Source: Methylobacter sp. (lineage in GTDB: Bacteria > Pseudomonadota > Gammaproteobacteria > Methylococcales > Methylomonadaceae). From it: a stretch of 64,000 bases of DNA. The DNA is taken from NCBI GenBank assembly GCA_030684815.1, contig JAUXXQ010000210.1:1-64000 (forward strand). Direction: 5' to 3'. The translations under genes and the position numbers were made by a program. Numbering within the stretch: the stretch's first letter is position 1; every line of letters begins with the position of its first letter. Shown in pieces: positions 524 through 11,500 of the stretch. The notes beneath the pieces were generated by a model. That model worked only from the letters and a program-made list of their open reading frames with translations. It ran no database searches and was not told the DNA's origin.

Positions 524-610
524 GCCTCGGTGGCGAAATTGGTAGACGCAAGGGACTTAAAATCCCTCGTTCGAAAGGACGTGCCGGTTCGACTCCGGCC
601 CGAGGCACCA
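524..610 (+). tRNA. tRNA-Leu (anticodon TAA)
   Basis: This is a class II tRNA with a long variable arm. The acceptor strands GCCTCGG and CCGAGGC pair, the anticodon stem AGGGA/TCCCT encloses loop CTTAAAA, the anticodon is TAA at 558-560, the T-loop is GGTTCGACTCC, and CCA is encoded (608-610). It reads UUA leucine codons. Its 3' end (588-610) is the attachment site of the adjoining integrative element, and integration has left the gene intact. Confidence 0.97.
588..610 (+). repeat. attL: tRNA-Leu 3' end, integration site
   Basis: The last 23 bp of the tRNA (ttcgactccggcccgaggcacca) recur near 11575-11596 with one substitution and one deleted base. A tyrosine integrase gene starts about 200 bp downstream. 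That is the usual layout of an element integrated into a tRNA 3' end. Confidence 0.8.
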
Positions 611-3106: not shown

Positions 3107-3118
3107 GGAGCATCCCAC

Positions 3119-3421
3119 ATGACGCAAATGCACAACCCACCACACCCCGGCGAAACGCTACGCGAAGACGTTTTGCCCGGTTTATCACTGACTGTAACCG
3201 CAGCAGCTAAACAGTTAGGCGTTACCCGTGCGGCATTATCGCGGGTACTGAATGGAAAGGCCGCTATATCGCCTGAAATGGCGCTAAGAATTGAGGGGTG
3301 GCTAGGCGTAGAGAATGGCGGCAGGGCTGATACATGGATAGCCCAGCAAGCCGCCTATGATCTATGGCAAGCCCGGAAAACCGGAGCGCCTACCGTGCAA
3401 CGAGCCGCGATGCCGCATTAA
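3119..3421 (+). CDS. higA: HigA-type antitoxin (XRE-family HTH)
   Basis: A 100-residue protein starting with the signature HPGETLREDVLP of HigA antitoxins. It has a Cro/CI helix-turn-helix around residues 27-47 (AAKQLGVTRAALSRVLNGK). It should neutralise the HigB-like toxin and repress the shared promoter. A ribosome-binding site (aaggag) lies 8 bp before the ATG. The second 59-bp structured repeat follows the stop by 10 bp, so the toxin-antitoxin pair is bounded by two direct repeats. Confidence 0.93.
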   Translation: MTQMHNPPHPGETLREDVLPGLSLTVTAAAKQLGVTRAALSRVLNGKAAISPEMALRIEGWLGVENGGRADTWIAQQAAYDLWQARKTGAPTVQRAAMPH

Positions 3422-3430
3422 AACCAGTTT

Positions 3431-3490
3431 AAACCGCACCTAGCCCGACGGGGCGAACATGGGCAACCTTTCACCCATTGGCGCGGTTTT
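3431..3490 (+). repeat. 59-bp structured repeat, copy 2 (after higBA)
   Basis: The second copy of the 2692-2750 repeat. The outer stem AAACCGC (3431-3437)/GCGGTTT (3483-3489) is perfect and is followed by a T-rich stretch. Inside are GCCC-gacg-GGGC and ATGGG-caacctttca-CCCAT hairpins. It may act as a terminator for higBA. Confidence 0.72.
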
Positions 3491-4406: not shown

Positions 4407-4646
4407 ATGGCTACACAAACCCCAACAACCGACCCCCAAACCCCAACAATTGACCACTTAAAACCAGGGTGCTATTTGCGCGTGGCAGTCTTAGCCGCTT
4501 GCCTTGGCATGTCAAAAAATTCCATATGGCGGTTGGCTAGAGACCCAAAAAACAACTTTCCACGCCCCATAAAATTGAGCGAAAAAATTACTGTCTGGTC
4601 TACAGATTCAATATTGCAATGGCTGGCAAGCAAGGCGGCCGCGTAA
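4407..4646 (+). CDS. AlpA-family excisionase/transcription regulator
   Basis: A 79-residue protein with the short MerR-like winged helix of the AlpA family (PF05930): YLRVAVLAACLGMSKNSIWRLARD, then FPRPIKLSEKITVWSTDSILQWLASK. AlpA proteins activate excision and replication genes in P4-like elements. A very strong ribosome-binding site (taaggagg) precedes the ATG. The stop overlaps the next start (TAATG), so it heads a compact operon. Confidence 0.88.
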   Translation: MATQTPTTDPQTPTIDHLKPGCYLRVAVLAACLGMSKNSIWRLARDPKNNFPRPIKLSEKITVWSTDSILQWLASKAAA

Positions 4647-5080
4647 TGACTTCCTTAGCAGAAATGGGCGAGGCGCGGGCGCGTGTCCTTGATTACGTCG
4701 AACAAACCCACAAGGCAGGCGGTTCCATTGCCGCCGCAATCAGTTGGTTTAACGTGCAATACGCAGCCCGACGATTACCGAAAACGCTACAGCGTAAAGC
4801 CGCCCTGGCATGGCAAAAGCCGCGTGACTGTATCCTGACCGAATCAACTTATGGCAAATGGGTTAAACAGCGAAAAGAGCGCGGCCATTCGTTACCCTTG
4901 GTGCGTCAAAAAGAAGTCGGCTCACAGCCTTGGCACTCGCTGGCGCATTCGATCAGACAGCGCAGCCCCAAACAAAAACACAAGGCCATGCTGGCGCAGT
5001 TACACAAAACCTATCCAGATATTAGCATCCATCAACTAAGGCGGCTTTATGCGGTCATAGACAAGGAGCTGGCACAATGA
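4646..5080 (+). CDS. Conserved-looking hypothetical protein, basic
   Basis: A 144-residue, strongly basic, helical protein (RRLPKTLQRKAALAWQKPRD; IRQRSPKQKHKAMLAQLHKT) that I do not recognise. The start at 4646 overlaps the alpA-like stop (TAATG); a start at 4619 is possible but would overlap more. The stop overlaps the next ATG (ATGA). The charge pattern would suit a nucleic-acid-binding accessory protein, but that is a guess. Confidence 0.7.
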   Translation: MTSLAEMGEARARVLDYVEQTHKAGGSIAAAISWFNVQYAARRLPKTLQRKAALAWQKPRDCILTESTYGKWVKQRKERGHSLPLVRQKEVGSQPWHSLAHSIRQRSPKQKHKAMLAQLHKTYPDISIHQLRRLYAVIDKELAQ

Positions 5081-5298
5081 AACATGACACCCAACTCGAC
5101 AAAATCAAAGCCGATCTGCTCAGTGGCCGGCGCGTTGATTCAGTGACCGCATTTAGCCAACATTGCATCACCCGGCTATCGGCAATCATCTACCGGCTAA
5201 GAGAAAGAGGCTGGCCGGTTGTGGCCGATCAGGACGGCGGCAACGGCCTTGCCCGTTACTCAGTGCCCGAAGGCTGGAAACCCGAACCGCCGCTGTAG
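5077..5298 (+). CDS. Small winged-helix-like protein
   Basis: A 73-residue protein whose middle (VDSVTAFSQHCITRLSAIIYRLRERGWPV) reads as a helix-turn-helix followed by a wing (ARYSVPEGW). This layout is common in small helix-turn-helix proteins of prophages and satellites. It overlaps the upstream stop by 4 bp. DNA binding is inferred from the pattern. Confidence 0.7.
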   Translation: MKHDTQLDKIKADLLSGRRVDSVTAFSQHCITRLSAIIYRLRERGWPVVADQDGGNGLARYSVPEGWKPEPPL

Positions 5299-5922: not shown

Positions 5923-6119
5923 ACGTAGATACCATCATCCGAGACATCGACCGGGAGGACAAAATCCACGAACTGCAGCGCTGTTTATCGGTTGTGGTCG
6001 ATTTGATGGAACCCGCCACCGATCTACACGCGGTTAACCGCGCCGATCTGGCGCTATTGCTGGGCTATTTGTCCGGGAAACTAGGCGAGGCAATGCAGGA
6101 GGGCACGAAATGGATTTAA
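5919..6119 (+). CDS. Small hypothetical protein
   Basis: A 66-residue helical protein with no recognised domain (DREDKIHELQRCLSVVVDLMEPATDLHAVNRADLALLLGYLSGKL). It is translationally coupled to its neighbours: its start overlaps the upstream stop by 4 bp, and its end overlaps the vapE-like start by 10 bp. A partner or regulator role for the NTPase is possible from position alone. Confidence 0.7.
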   Translation: MNVDTIIRDIDREDKIHELQRCLSVVVDLMEPATDLHAVNRADLALLLGYLSGKLGEAMQEGTKWI

Positions 6120-7339
6120 GCAAACCGCTTGCCCGTGAATCATTCCCGCACACGTCAGAGAAAGGGCGAATTAAGGCCACTATTGCCAACCTTGCGCACC
6201 TGTTCAAATCCTACGGTATTACTTGCCAATACGATGAAATGCTGAAGAAGCAAACCATTGCAACCGCCAACGCCGAAGACGATAACGACCTAAGCGGCAA
6301 TGCAATATTAGCGGAAATACAAAGCGCTTTAGCATTGAATGATATGCCGGTTTCTTGCCTGAACTTAATCCCGTCACTGATGAAACGGAATATTGTTAAT
6401 CCGGTGCTGGCATTCATTCAATCCGAACCGTGGGATGGAAAAGACCGCCTACCTACGTTTTATGAGTCACTGCAAGTGGAGGCGAAAGACGAGGGCTACC
6501 GGGATTTAGCGGTTAGGACGTGGCTTTTGCAATGCGTAGCCGCCGCCGACAGCGCAAAAAGTACGCCGATCAAACACGCCACGGCCAAATTTGAATTGGT
6601 GTTGGTGCTGCAAGGCGGACAGGGCGCATTAAAGACAACGTGGTTTAGGTCACTTTTGCCCAAAGACATGAGCGCCTATATCGTTGACGGCGCACACCTT
6701 GACCCCGCCGACAAGGACACGGTGAAACGCTGTATTAGTTGCTGGATATGCGAATTAGGCGAACTTGATGCAACCTTTAGACGCGCCGACGTTGCCCGGT
6801 TAAAGGCGTTTTTGTCCAGTGAGCGGGATAATATCCGCCTGCCCTACGACCGCGCCGATTCGTCATTTATGCGGAGAACATCGTTCGGCGCTTCCGTAAA
6901 CCCAAAGACTTTTCTTGTGGACGACACCGGCGCCAGGCGTTTTTTGCCGCTGGCCATTAGCAAATGCCGACCGATCAGCCATGATATTCAACAAATTTGG
7001 GCGCAAGTCTGGCACTTGTACATAAACGGTTCACAGTGGTGGTCAAGTCCAGAGCTTGAGCGATTGCTTATAGATATTCACGCCGAACATGCCGAAGATA
7101 GCCCTGTTATCGAAATGATTAGCGAGGCCTTTAATGTGTCCGAGCCGGTGAAACGCGATTTTTTACGGTTTGAGCATCTTACGGCCATTCAAATTATCAG
7201 AGAATCAGGCATAGACAGCCCGAATAAAACGCAACTGCAGCAAGCCCGCGCATTTTTGGAAGCCAAAGGATTTAAGAACGTCCAATCAACCAGCAACAAA
7301 CGGGGGTATTGGATAACCAAAGAAATAGACGGCCTATAA
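6110..7339 (+). CDS. VapE-family P-loop NTPase (replication helicase-like)
   Basis: A 409-residue VapE-type protein, the presumed replication NTPase/helicase of the element. The Walker A motif is GGQGALKT (169-176) and the Walker B-like strand is WICELGELD (212-220). The following RRADVARLKAFLSSERDNIRLPYDRA...RRTSF block and the NPKTFLVDDTGARRFLP block (264-280) are typical of the family. There is no N-terminal primase domain; that role may fall to the toprim protein encoded at 8098. It overlaps the upstream gene by 10 bp. A repeat array suited to an origin follows directly. Confidence 0.9.
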   Translation: MDLSKPLARESFPHTSEKGRIKATIANLAHLFKSYGITCQYDEMLKKQTIATANAEDDNDLSGNAILAEIQSALALNDMPVSCLNLIPSLMKRNIVNPVLAFIQSEPWDGKDRLPTFYESLQVEAKDEGYRDLAVRTWLLQCVAAADSAKSTPIKHATAKFELVLVLQGGQGALKTTWFRSLLPKDMSAYIVDGAHLDPADKDTVKRCISCWICELGELDATFRRADVARLKAFLSSERDNIRLPYDRADSSFMRRTSFGASVNPKTFLVDDTGARRFLPLAISKCRPISHDIQQIWAQVWHLYINGSQWWSSPELERLLIDIHAEHAEDSPVIEMISEAFNVSEPVKRDFLRFEHLTAIQIIRESGIDSPNKTQLQQARAFLEAKGFKNVQSTSNKRGYWITKEIDGL

Positions 7340-7428
7340 TTGAAACACTTTTGAAACACGGCTTGAAACATTTCAGGCCGTTTTTTTTACCCCCATTTCA
7401 TAAAAAAAAAGTTTTTTGTGTTTTTTAG

Positions 7429-7620
7429 TGTGGGTAGTGTGGGTTTTTAGTAATGGCGCGGCCTATAGAGATTTTGTAGTGTGGGTTAGCTGTGGGTTTT
7501 CATGTGGGTCTGTGGGTTTTTGATGTGGGTAATGTGGGTGCTGTGGGTCGTTTTTTAGCTTAATGTGGGTCGTTTCTGCCTTTTAACTCAATTACTTATA
7601 TAAAACCCACACGACCCACA
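7429..7620. other. Candidate replication origin: TGTGGGT iteron array
   Basis: Ten direct copies of TGTGGGT start at 7429, 7438, 7480, 7491, 7503, 7511, 7524, 7533, 7542 and 7564. Two inverted copies (ACCCACA) start at 7605 and 7614. An AT-rich stretch (7571-7604) separates the two groups. The array lies between the vapE-type NTPase and the ssb-like and toprim genes, in a 390-bp gap without genes. Repeats of this kind beside replication genes are typical of iteron origins. Origin function is inferred. Confidence 0.7.
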
Positions 7621-7648
7621 CTAAAAACAGCAAACTTTTAAAAACAAA

Positions 7649-7675
7649 AAAAGCCTACCGGGGAAAAGAAGAGGT
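7649..7675. repeat. 27-bp inverted repeat, left arm
   Basis: This arm is the exact reverse complement of 8055-8081. Together the arms enclose the ssb-like gene, which starts 53 bp downstream. See the right arm. Confidence 0.95.
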
Positions 7676-7728: not shown

Positions 7729-8055
7729 ATGATTGAAGCACTTGTAAGCGGAAAAATGATAAAGGATGCAGAGCTTAAGACCGGAGCCAAGTCTACCTAC
7801 TGCAATTTCTTGGTATCGGTCGATATAAACGAACCGGATAGGGCGGTAGTATCGTGCATTGCCTTTAATGAAGCGGCGGAACGCATAGCCAAACTAAAAA
7901 AAGGCGATGCCGTCACCGTTATTGGCGCGTTAAAGCCGAGCCAGTGGACGGACAAGGCCACCGGCCAAACAAAACACGGCCTCAACGTAACAGTGTCATC
8001 GTGCCTCAGCGTGTACGACCTTAAGCAGCGCAAAGCATCAGGCAGCCATGAATAA
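7729..8055 (+). CDS. Single-stranded DNA-binding protein-like (OB fold)
   Basis: A 108-residue protein that reads as a minimal OB fold without the acidic C-terminal tail of bacterial SSB. It begins MIEALVSGKMIKDAEL, has YCNFLVSVDI and VVSCIAFNEAAERIAKLKKGDAVTVIGALKPS (the strand-helix-strand order of SSB proteins), and ends NVTVSSCLSV. It probably coats single strands during replication of the element. The whole gene is enclosed by a perfect 27-bp inverted repeat whose right arm starts at the last base of the stop codon. That repeat may control its expression. Confidence 0.85.
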   Translation: MIEALVSGKMIKDAELKTGAKSTYCNFLVSVDINEPDRAVVSCIAFNEAAERIAKLKKGDAVTVIGALKPSQWTDKATGQTKHGLNVTVSSCLSVYDLKQRKASGSHE

Positions 8056-8081
8056 CCTCTTCTTTTCCCCGGTAGGCTTTT
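8055..8081. repeat. 27-bp inverted repeat, right arm
   Basis: A perfect inverted copy of 7649-7675. It begins on the last base of the ssb-like stop codon and ends 16 bp before the start of the toprim gene, whose ribosome-binding site (aggaag) lies just after it. The 14-mer AGGCTTTTAACAGG at its outer edge (8074-8087) recurs at 10898 and 11116. Confidence 0.95.
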
Positions 8082-8097
8082 AACAGGAAGCTTAACA

Positions 8098-8943
8098 ATG
8101 GATATTGAAAATTTAAGAGTGTTGGACTTGGCTGCGGTCTGTTCGTTGCTGAACTTGGAACGGGACGAAAAAGACCCGAAGCAATTTAAAACCGATGGCT
8201 TTAGGATTAGCGTTACAGGGCTAAAGTGGTTCGATCATAGCGCCGGGAAAGGGGGCGGCGGAGCAATTGATCTGGTCATGCACGTTAAGCATTTGTCGTT
8301 TATGGCTGCAGCCAATTATTTGAGCAGTGCAGGCGGCGAACTGCCCACGGCATCGACGAAGGCCGCCACCGCAAAAACCACTGCAGCAGCAACCAAGCCG
8401 CCCACACCCAATAAAAACAACCTGCCAAGGATATTGGCCTACCTCACCGAGCAACGCGGGTTAAATGCCGCATTGGTGCAATGGTGCGTGGACAAAGGCC
8501 TGATTTATGCCGATTGCCGCAATAATTGCGTTTTCAGATACGGGCACCAGGGCGCGGAATTGCGTGGCACCGGCGCGGTTCAATGGCGCTCTGTGTACGG
8601 CACGATTGAACACGGCTTTATTTTGCCAGCGCGTTTACCTGTTGGCGTTGCCGTGCTTGAATCGGCCATAGACGCGCTGAGTTACCGGCAGATTCACCGG
8701 GACATGATAACGCTATCCATTGCCGGGAACGGAAACCATAAAATCATCCAGCAAGCCGTCAACATAGCCAAGGCAAACAAATTGCCGGTGTTCAGTGCGT
8801 TTGACAGCGACAGCGGCGGTAATGTTGCCGACAAGATTCTGTGCGGTTATGCGGCGAGCGATGGCGTAACCGTTATGCAAGACAGACCCCGCCGCAAGGA
8901 CTGGAACGAGCAATTAAGAATAATGCCGAAAGACATTATCTAG
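8098..8943 (+). CDS. Toprim-domain primase-like protein
   Basis: A 281-residue protein with an N-terminal DUF3991-like region (FRISVTGLKWFDHSAGKGGGGAIDLVMH, 35-62) of the kind placed before toprim domains in mobile-element primases. A linker rich in Ala, Thr and Pro (83-108) follows, then a toprim fold: E188 in VAVLESAIDAL and D236/D238 in FSAFDSDSGG. No zinc-binding motif is seen. With the VapE-like NTPase and the ssb-like protein it would make up a compact replication module. It may prime at the iteron array upstream. Confidence 0.87.
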   Translation: MDIENLRVLDLAAVCSLLNLERDEKDPKQFKTDGFRISVTGLKWFDHSAGKGGGGAIDLVMHVKHLSFMAAANYLSSAGGELPTASTKAATAKTTAAATKPPTPNKNNLPRILAYLTEQRGLNAALVQWCVDKGLIYADCRNNCVFRYGHQGAELRGTGAVQWRSVYGTIEHGFILPARLPVGVAVLESAIDALSYRQIHRDMITLSIAGNGNHKIIQQAVNIAKANKLPVFSAFDSDSGGNVADKILCGYAASDGVTVMQDRPRRKDWNEQLRIMPKDII

Positions 8944-9028: not shown

Positions 9029-9358
9029 TTATGCACAAGGCCGCGCTTGTGCTTTTTCAGTATTAACCCGCTTGATAATGCTATAAATTTGTTTAACGGT
9101 TACGCCGTATTCTTTGTGTAATTCATCCGTATTTTTCCCGTTGTATTTTTCATAAATTTCAATATCCCGCTGTCTTTTTTGGTAGTTATCGCCTTTAGGG
9201 AAATACAGCGGCGTACCTGAATAATGGATTCTAATCATTTCAGTAACGCACCATGCAACCTCATAGCTGGTTTTCGGCTTTAGCTTATCCAGCTCATGGC
9301 GCAGCCTTTCGTGCATATCGGTCAACTTTTCGGGGTAATTTTCTGGAAGTTCGTTCAT
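9029..9358 (-). CDS. Mor-family transcription activator
   Basis: A 109-residue protein matching the C-terminal part of Mor/C activators (PF08765): GTPLYFPKGDNYQKRQRDIEIYEKYNGKNTDELHKEYGVTVKQIYSIIKRV. The last section is the helix-turn-helix that, in Mu Mor, activates a middle promoter. It is the only reverse-strand gene in the element with a clear function. It probably acts on promoters in the divergent region 9359-9598. The 18-bp palindrome follows its stop. Confidence 0.85.
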   Translation of the reverse strand: MNELPENYPEKLTDMHERLRHELDKLKPKTSYEVAWCVTEMIRIHYSGTPLYFPKGDNYQKRQRDIEIYEKYNGKNTDELHKEYGVTVKQIYSIIKRVNTEKAQARPCA

Positions 9359-10739: not shown

Positions 10740-10791
10740 TGCCCCATGAATCAGGCATGATCTACGCGGCTTACAGTCCGGCAGAGATGCC

Positions 10792-10913
10792 TTAGAGATG
10801 CCCGAAAAAGCCGCCGAAACGGGCGGCTTTTTTTTGCCTTGAATTTTGGAACCTGTTAAATCTTCTCTCTAAGCCACTGTGCAAATAATTTCACAGCAGG
10901 CTTTTAACAGGCA
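10792..10913 (+). repeat. 122-bp direct repeat, copy 1, with terminator
   Basis: It contains a terminator hairpin (AGCCGCC-gaaacg-GGCGGCT then eight T). It then carries a larger palindrome whose ends are cctgttaaa and tttaacagg around ataatttcacagcaggc. Copy 2 starts at 11010, a period of 218 bp, with roughly 90% identity by eye. Confidence 0.85.
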
Positions 10914-11009
10914 ACTTGAATGATGTAACACCAATCAAGTTACCTGAACCCGCACCGGCAAGCCCGACCTTTCGCAGCCGATCTAATCCAGCCCCTATCA
11001 TACGAAGCT

Positions 11010-11132
11010 TTAGAGATGCCCGAAAAAGCCGCCGAAACGAGCGGCTTTTTTTTGCCTTGAATTTGTGCGCCTGTTAAATCTTCTTTCTAGTCCACCGTGT
11101 AAATAATTTCACAGCAGGCTTTTAACAGGCAA
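11010..11132 (+). repeat. 122-bp direct repeat, copy 2, with terminator
   Basis: The second copy of 10792-10913, with the same terminator (one stem base changed) and the same AGGCTTTTAACAGG motif (11116-11129). The motif is also found beside the ssb-like gene at 8074. Confidence 0.85.
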
Positions 11133-11500
11133 AATACCAATTAAGCCAGCGCCGTATAAATGAAATTATCAGGAAAGCGGCATTAACCCGGCATTGATAC
11201 AGCCTAGCTATAATATTTGTCCGGGACTATTAAAGACTATACGGGATGTATTGAGCCGCCATTTATTTTAAAACCGGCTGATATGCAAAACCAGCTACAG
11301 ACAAATTAAACGGCTTTACCAGAGTTTTTAAAAAGTATATTCCGGTAAGAGCCGTTACGTTTCGATATGCTGATAGCGCCATACTGGCCGGCACTATTAA
11401 GAACGATGTGATTAAGAAAAAAATAGGGCAAGGCTTGCGGTTACAAATCTGTTTTTTGTTCCATGACGCACCATACAAAACCGCTTTAACACGTGCTATT

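Follow-up and report, generated by a model that had tools for sequence, protein, structure and literature searches.

The analysed window, a 64,000-nt stretch (positions 1 to 64,000) of contig JAUXXQ010000210.1 from the Methylobacter sp. assembly GCA_030684815.1, carries twelve copies of the heptamer TGTGGGT (iterons) at positions 7429–7620, directly 3′ of a gene for a VapE-type helicase. This array is very probably the origin from which an integrated satellite-like island replicates, with the VapE-type protein as its initiator (Rep). The part of the original prediction that proposed a dedicated origin has held up: the array lies 3′ of a helicase resembling Rep of Staphylococcus aureus pathogenicity islands (SaPIs). 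The origin is well supported because the iteron spacing is conserved in relatives, arrays of this kind occur on natural plasmids and a circular relative, the helicase model matches structure 7pds, the iteron word co-varies with the C-terminal domain of the helicase, and a second trio of elements shows the same pattern.

The ten direct and two inverted copies that had been counted in 192 bp were found at exact coordinates, and all twelve are letter-perfect. The array begins 90 bp past the vapE stop, beyond a terminator-like hairpin with a T run (7358–7381, forward strand). The hairpin stretch is homologous in the nearest relative, L026, where it likewise ends in a T run and a G-C pair replaces the T/G of the window. 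From vapE rightward, the hairpin is followed by an A/T tract, an iteron pair (iterons 1–2, 7429–7444, forward strand, starting at 7429 and 7438), a spacer (7445–7479), eight iterons (iterons 3–10, 7480–7570, forward strand, starting at 7480, 7491, 7503, 7511, 7524, 7533, 7542, and 7564), a gap (7571–7604), an opposed pair 9 bp apart (iterons 11–12, 7605–7620, reverse strand, at 7605–7611 and 7614–7620), and a mirrored A/T tract. The outer two copies on each side, 9 bp apart, form together with their A/T flanks (76–81% AT) a 33-nt inverted repeat whose arms (7415–7447, forward strand; 7602–7634, reverse strand) are 88% complementary. The gap is the AT-rich segment described in the original prediction as separating the direct from the inverted copies; it is 73.5% AT, ranks in the top 1.8% of island 34-mers, and is a possible melting segment. 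The ten direct and two inverted iterons around it correspond to the origins of Gram-negative phage-inducible chromosomal islands (PICIs), which follow rep on its 3′ side and invariably comprise two iteron sets around an AT-rich region (PMC6092414).

TGTGGGT occurs 22 times in the window, compared with 5.7 ± 2.3 in dinucleotide shuffles (maximum 11 in 100 shuffles); the excess is due to the array, since 12 of the 22 copies fall in the 192 bp. Pairs of TGTGGGT within 10 nt (8 pairs) were found nowhere else in the 4.29-Mb genome, and the reversed-pattern control gave 0. A first-order Markov model trained on the array, chosen as an intentionally severe test, produced 12 copies in 1 of 2000 runs.

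VapE relatives were collected by an alignment search (80 loci from genomes and 80 per scan from viral contigs); the viral-contig scan with the single VapE protein gave no match, and an alignment query was required. The nearest relatives are L026 (Methylovulum; 72% identity in the best segment), L024 (62%), and L025 (55%). No island with the same genes and without an array was found among these three, all of which carry one at the same place. The array of L026 consists of nine direct TGGATG(T/C) and two inverted copies, that of L024 of six TGGAGGT, and that of L025 of TGCTTC (TGCTTCA), with the outer 9-bp pairs kept and a different inner spacing. When the related islands were aligned, the spacing proved conserved in L026 and L024 despite their different words: the start-to-start distances are 9, 42, 11, 12, 8, 13, 9, 9, and 22 bp in the window, 9, 42, 11, 12, 7, 14, 8, and 9 bp in L026 (TGGATG), and 9, 41, 11, 12, and 8 bp in L024 (TGGAGGT). 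The spacer element AGTAAyGGCGCGGyCT can be made out by eye in L025, and parts of it are kept in L026 and L024. Between the window and L026, 39 of 77 iteron positions are identical, compared with 103 of 152 in the remaining region; the scaffold is therefore kept while the words change together. The helicase and ssb frames of L026 are interrupted in its assembly, so this relative backs the DNA layout, not a working element. The L025 array has no ssb gene behind it. A toprim search of 369 genomes of the class returned one marginal match; the exact ssb-toprim arrangement is therefore rare. In a separate clade (L336, L337, and L338), the cores are 80–87% identical, the origins align, the words are GTGCCC, GTGCCA, and GTGCAC, and the helix shows an invariant N followed by H, Q, or I. 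Concerted word change on a fixed scaffold was thus seen twice, in the window clade and in this trio. A second VapE primase-helicase element is present in the same genome as the window (L322, contig C140 of G000); it has GAGGTTG pairs in both orientations about 750 bp after vapE (array at 3108–3156), and a further GAGGTTG pair lies on contig C151 (10722–10737).

The two ends of the 9,665-bp L024 contig overlap exactly over 141 nt, so that it closes into a 9,524-bp circle with the gene order of the window (integrase, AlpA, VapE, array, ssb, and toprim). Such a circle may represent an excised element, a plasmid, or a concatemer, and each of these would imply extrachromosomal DNA. A phage cement (decoration) protein gene (PF09956) was noted at 1001–1342 of L024, which may accordingly be a plasmid of phage origin or specify part of a capsid. 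Complete natural plasmids with an array 3′ of vapE are pPSEST02 (9,865 bp), pSCU-121-2, and pAURM-2; no other Rep was found by Pfam in the ten pPSEST02 proteins scanned. The 7355-bp L087 from Pseudomonas sp. UMAB-08 contains vapE, its ends overlap exactly over 70 nt, and it is probably another small circular VapE element. Of 158 VapE loci, 29 had at least six copies of one 7-mer within 600 bp on the 3′ side of vapE, compared with 2 of 145 for 600 bp on its 5′ side (Fisher p 4e-7), and the array criterion was reached in 22 of 83 loci versus 7 of 384 random control segments; these p-values overstate the evidence because related loci are not independent.

The VapE-type protein of the window (409 aa; 6110–7339, forward strand; Pfam PF05272, VapE-like domain, 8e-47) was modelled from 38 sequences with a mean predicted local distance difference test (pLDDT) score of 90; a three-sequence version was confident in the C-terminal domain only. 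The best PDB match of the model is 7pds (Z 24.1 over 374 residues, model range 7–408 including the C-terminal domain), the runner-up reaching Z 14.4, and a sequence-profile match to the same entry gave E 2e-41. The entry is titled "structure of PriRep1 with dsDNA", its depositors call PriRep1 similar to D. nodosus VapE, and it corresponds to the complex of SaPI Rep with DNA reported by Qiao et al. 2022. A C-terminal winged helix is predicted at approximately residues 331–406. Residues 354–404 of the model comprise one strand, two helices, and a two-stranded wing, and helix 373–385 occupies the position of a putative recognition helix. The Pfam assignment, the 7pds match, and the predicted winged helix agree with the AAA+ Rep helicase with C-terminal DNA-binding domain of SaPIs and PICIs. 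SaPI Rep recognises iterons directly downstream of rep via its C-terminal domain (PMC7581432).

Co-variation was analysed in 39 non-redundant elements by partial Mantel tests with permutation p. Iteron similarity tracked C-terminal-domain similarity with core similarity removed (partial r 0.21, p 0.0002), and the relation persisted after the clade containing the window was left out (0.26, p 0.0004). With the C-terminal domain removed, no relation to core similarity was detected (0.08, p 0.08). Among members of the window clade, identity is lower over the C-terminal 75 columns than over the core (53% versus 80% between the window and L026, and 49% versus 64% between the window and L024). The best single co-varying column is residue 377, within the putative recognition helix, where T accompanies TCA/ACA-type words and K accompanies GTAG words (Fisher p 0.002 each; the classes were defined post hoc and the p values ignore shared ancestry, so this is a lead only). 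Tentatively, and with somewhat less than an even chance, the VapE family may follow a recognition code in which window residues 377–378, at the start of the recognition helix, dictate the iteron word. Sister origins would then change all copies in concert on a kept scaffold and spacing, avoiding cross-fire or origin-directed attack among satellites sharing hosts. This code is proposed because of the words TGTGGGT, TGGATGT, TGGAGGT, and TGCTTCA, the L336/L337/L338 trio, and the GAGGTTG word of the second element. Word switching could be driven by incompatibility between sister elements, such as the second VapE element of this genome, or, as in PLE satellites, by origin-directed nucleases (PMC8263062).

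We infer a working window copy in which VapE would act as a self-loading hexameric AAA+ helicase, its C-terminal winged helix binding each TGTGGGT. Binding at the forward copies and at the opposed outer pair would load helicase rings on both sides, and the loaded rings would melt nearby AT-rich DNA. The island SSB (single-stranded DNA-binding) and toprim (primase-like) proteins and the host polymerase would then begin replication.

An integrated element is clearly recognisable in its left half, at whose end lies a tRNA-Leu (TAA) gene (524–610, forward strand; ARAGORN), the likely integration site. In congeners G012 and G017, a 57–61-bp piece of the tRNA-Leu 3′ part occurs again at distances of about 7 and 3 kb, and tRNA-Leu is therefore a used integration site in the genus. 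A different island (L325; contig C40 of G012, 1.3–8.5 kb) occupies the same tRNA-Leu, is bounded by an approximately 57-bp tRNA duplication, and contains, as named by eye from its sequence, an integrase, a zinc-finger primase-like protein, and a large toprim-like protein. In the window, the tRNA gene is followed on the forward strand by genes for a tyrosine integrase with Arm-DNA-bind_3 (818–2035; Pfam), an AlpA-type regulator/excisionase (4407–4646; Pfam PF05930, 8e-08), and a winged HTH_39 protein (5077–5298; Pfam PF14090). Genes for a PIN-domain protein, its small partner, and a HigB/HTH pair lie between the integrase and AlpA. Next come vapE and the array, followed, also on the forward strand, by genes for a small SSB (7729–8055; Pfam PF00436, 2e-9) and a primase-like protein with DUF3991 and Toprim_2 (8098–8943; Pfam; weak PHROG match to DNA primase). 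The array thus lies, as had been proposed, between a VapE-type gene and ssb/toprim genes, and the vapE, ssb, and toprim frames are all open. The set of int, AlpA, and rep with rightward transcription agrees with PICIs; a gene for a Mor-type transcription activator (9029–9358; PF08765, 1e-21) is on the opposite strand, and a link to phage induction is possible. Among the proteins scanned with Pfam, no TerS or capsid-remodelling gene was recognised. Classical iteron plasmids are characterised by a Rep_3-type initiator, iterons of about 17–22 bp, and DnaA boxes. Here, no Rep_3/RepA-type initiator was found among the proteins scanned, the iterons are 7 bp long, and no exact DnaA box was found near the array, where one with one mismatch sits inside an iteron.

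Several further repeats were observed in the island. A 27-nt perfect inverted repeat (AAAAGCCTACCGGGGAAAAGAAGAGGT; 7649–7675 and 8055–8081) exactly flanks ssb, with a diverged copy on both sides in L024 and one on the left in L026; it is possibly a transcript stem, a protein site, or a cassette boundary. Its right arm continues into AGGCTTTTAACAGG (8065–8099), which recurs at 10889–10923 and 11107–11141, these two copies being located in and beside a 129-nt direct repeat (10786–10914 and 11004–11132, 91%) near the putative right island end. A 68-nt direct repeat (2683–2750 and 3422–3489, 88%) flanks the HigB/HTH toxin-antitoxin pair, an arrangement that would fit insertion or movement of this pair as a cassette.

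Other functions of the array were considered. It occupies the ssb leader, parted from vapE by the hairpin, and iteron arrays of iteron plasmids often double as autoregulatory operators, so it might serve as an operator for a regulator of the ssb-toprim operon with no part in the start of replication. This is improbable, given that no promoter-like site was found inside the array, that L025 keeps its array with no ssb behind, that word and helicase C-terminal domain vary together, and that arrays follow vapE in plasmids and phages having other downstream genes. A partition (parS-like) or packaging site is more improbable still. Although arrays of short repeats are likewise found at centromere-like and packaging sites, no ParA, ParB, or TerS was recognised among the island proteins scanned with Pfam, and the position 3′ of an initiator helicase fits experimentally tested SaPI/PICI origins. 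The word is made of G and T alone, and more than 120 viral-contig stretches contain three spaced TGTGGGT, so that the word by itself is not specific. Nevertheless, the idea of a neutrally expanded tandem repeat, or of a GT-rich stretch of low complexity, deserves hardly any credence: the spacing is irregular (8–42 bp) and not tandem, two copies are inverted, and the cluster is unique in the genome. This reading was refuted by the conservation of the spacing in relatives with changed words.

Several observations weigh against a working origin of the proposed kind. Among 160 VapE relatives, 116 have no strict exact-word array within 2.6 kb, a count based on short perfect words, a narrow criterion missed by L104/L338 and L337 though their arrays are visible by eye and alignment; many of the array-less relatives are phages, which may place or build their origins differently. 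The co-variation vanishes for pairs below 42% core identity and therefore reflects within-clade changes. In L024, the opposed iteron set lies about 1.4 kb away, a second array after toprim having six inverted TGGAGGT with partly mirrored spacing (9, 41, 12, 9, and 32 bp). The segment of L026 matching the gap is only 49% AT; since the outer opposed pairs and the A/T tracts are the most constant parts, melting may, judging from the sequences, occur at the flanking tracts instead of the central gap. Finally, when the tRNA-Leu 3′ end was sought genome-wide with up to three mismatches, it occurred once in the assembly. Excision is therefore not to be assumed, and replication of the island by itself after excision, as originally expected, is no more than a possibility; the copy may be stranded without a right attachment site (attR). 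A real origin that is dead in the window copy, a stranded remnant having lost attR, is compatible with the origin assignment and is possible without being probable. The TetR/RND genes at 12.3 kb point the same way as the single tRNA-Leu end. They are conserved in the genus and lie on other contigs or about 107 kb from tRNA-Leu in the congeners compared (G005, G020, and G012), not near it where both could be placed; the right flank of the island is therefore rearranged here or not represented. Conversely, the twelve perfect iterons and the open vapE, ssb, and toprim frames argue for recent function, and the assembly, in 235 contigs, may miss the right junction.

Compared with known systems, the proposed origin resembles SaPI Rep-ori (SaPI1/SaPIbov1) in its presumably self-loading AAA+ helicase with C-terminal DNA-binding domain and iterons directly 3′. 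It differs in its host, a gammaproteobacterium of the Methylococcales, in the ssb and toprim/DUF3991 genes following the helicase, and in an iteron word that is not known to be published. Gram-negative PICIs (EcCICFT073 and others; PMC6092414, Fig. 2) share int, AlpA, rep, opposed iteron sets, and rightward transcription, and their rep-ori segment drives plasmid maintenance (PMC6092414). In contrast, the window Rep has no primase domain, no helper phage is known, the opposed set has only two copies, and the AT-rich centre is not kept in the nearest relative. In the PLE satellites of Vibrio cholerae (PMC7145576, PMC8263062), iterons likewise co-vary with the DNA-binding domain of the initiator; however, PLE RepA is a RepA_N protein, not a helicase, the iterons are about 30 bp long, and PLEs swap whole modules, whereas the window clade keeps the scaffold and changes the word only. 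PLEs are also acted upon by the origin-directed nuclease Odn (PMC8263062). Geminivirus Rep (PMC2974675) recognises iterons of 5–8 nt whose variable core is matched to a variable Rep residue in the iteron-related domain, a change leading to strain incompatibility; it is a rolling-circle Rep of plant viruses, and the protein is unrelated. A literature search (PMC) found no paper combining VapE, helicase, and iteron. Each part has a precedent in PICIs, SaPI Rep, PLEs, or geminiviruses, and the noteworthy part is the concerted word switching on a fixed scaffold.

These results place a SaPI/PICI-style replicon in methanotrophs. They also connect "virulence-associated protein E", a widespread protein whose name says little, with a role as origin initiator and with a defined DNA target. 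The matched changes of word and winged helix raise the question of whether the replication specificity of satellites can be switched by one helix and one word of three to four letters. They further raise the question of whether such switching spares satellites mutual cross-talk or attack by Odn-like origin-directed nucleases (PMC8263062). The helicase and its sites appear to evolve as a matched pair.
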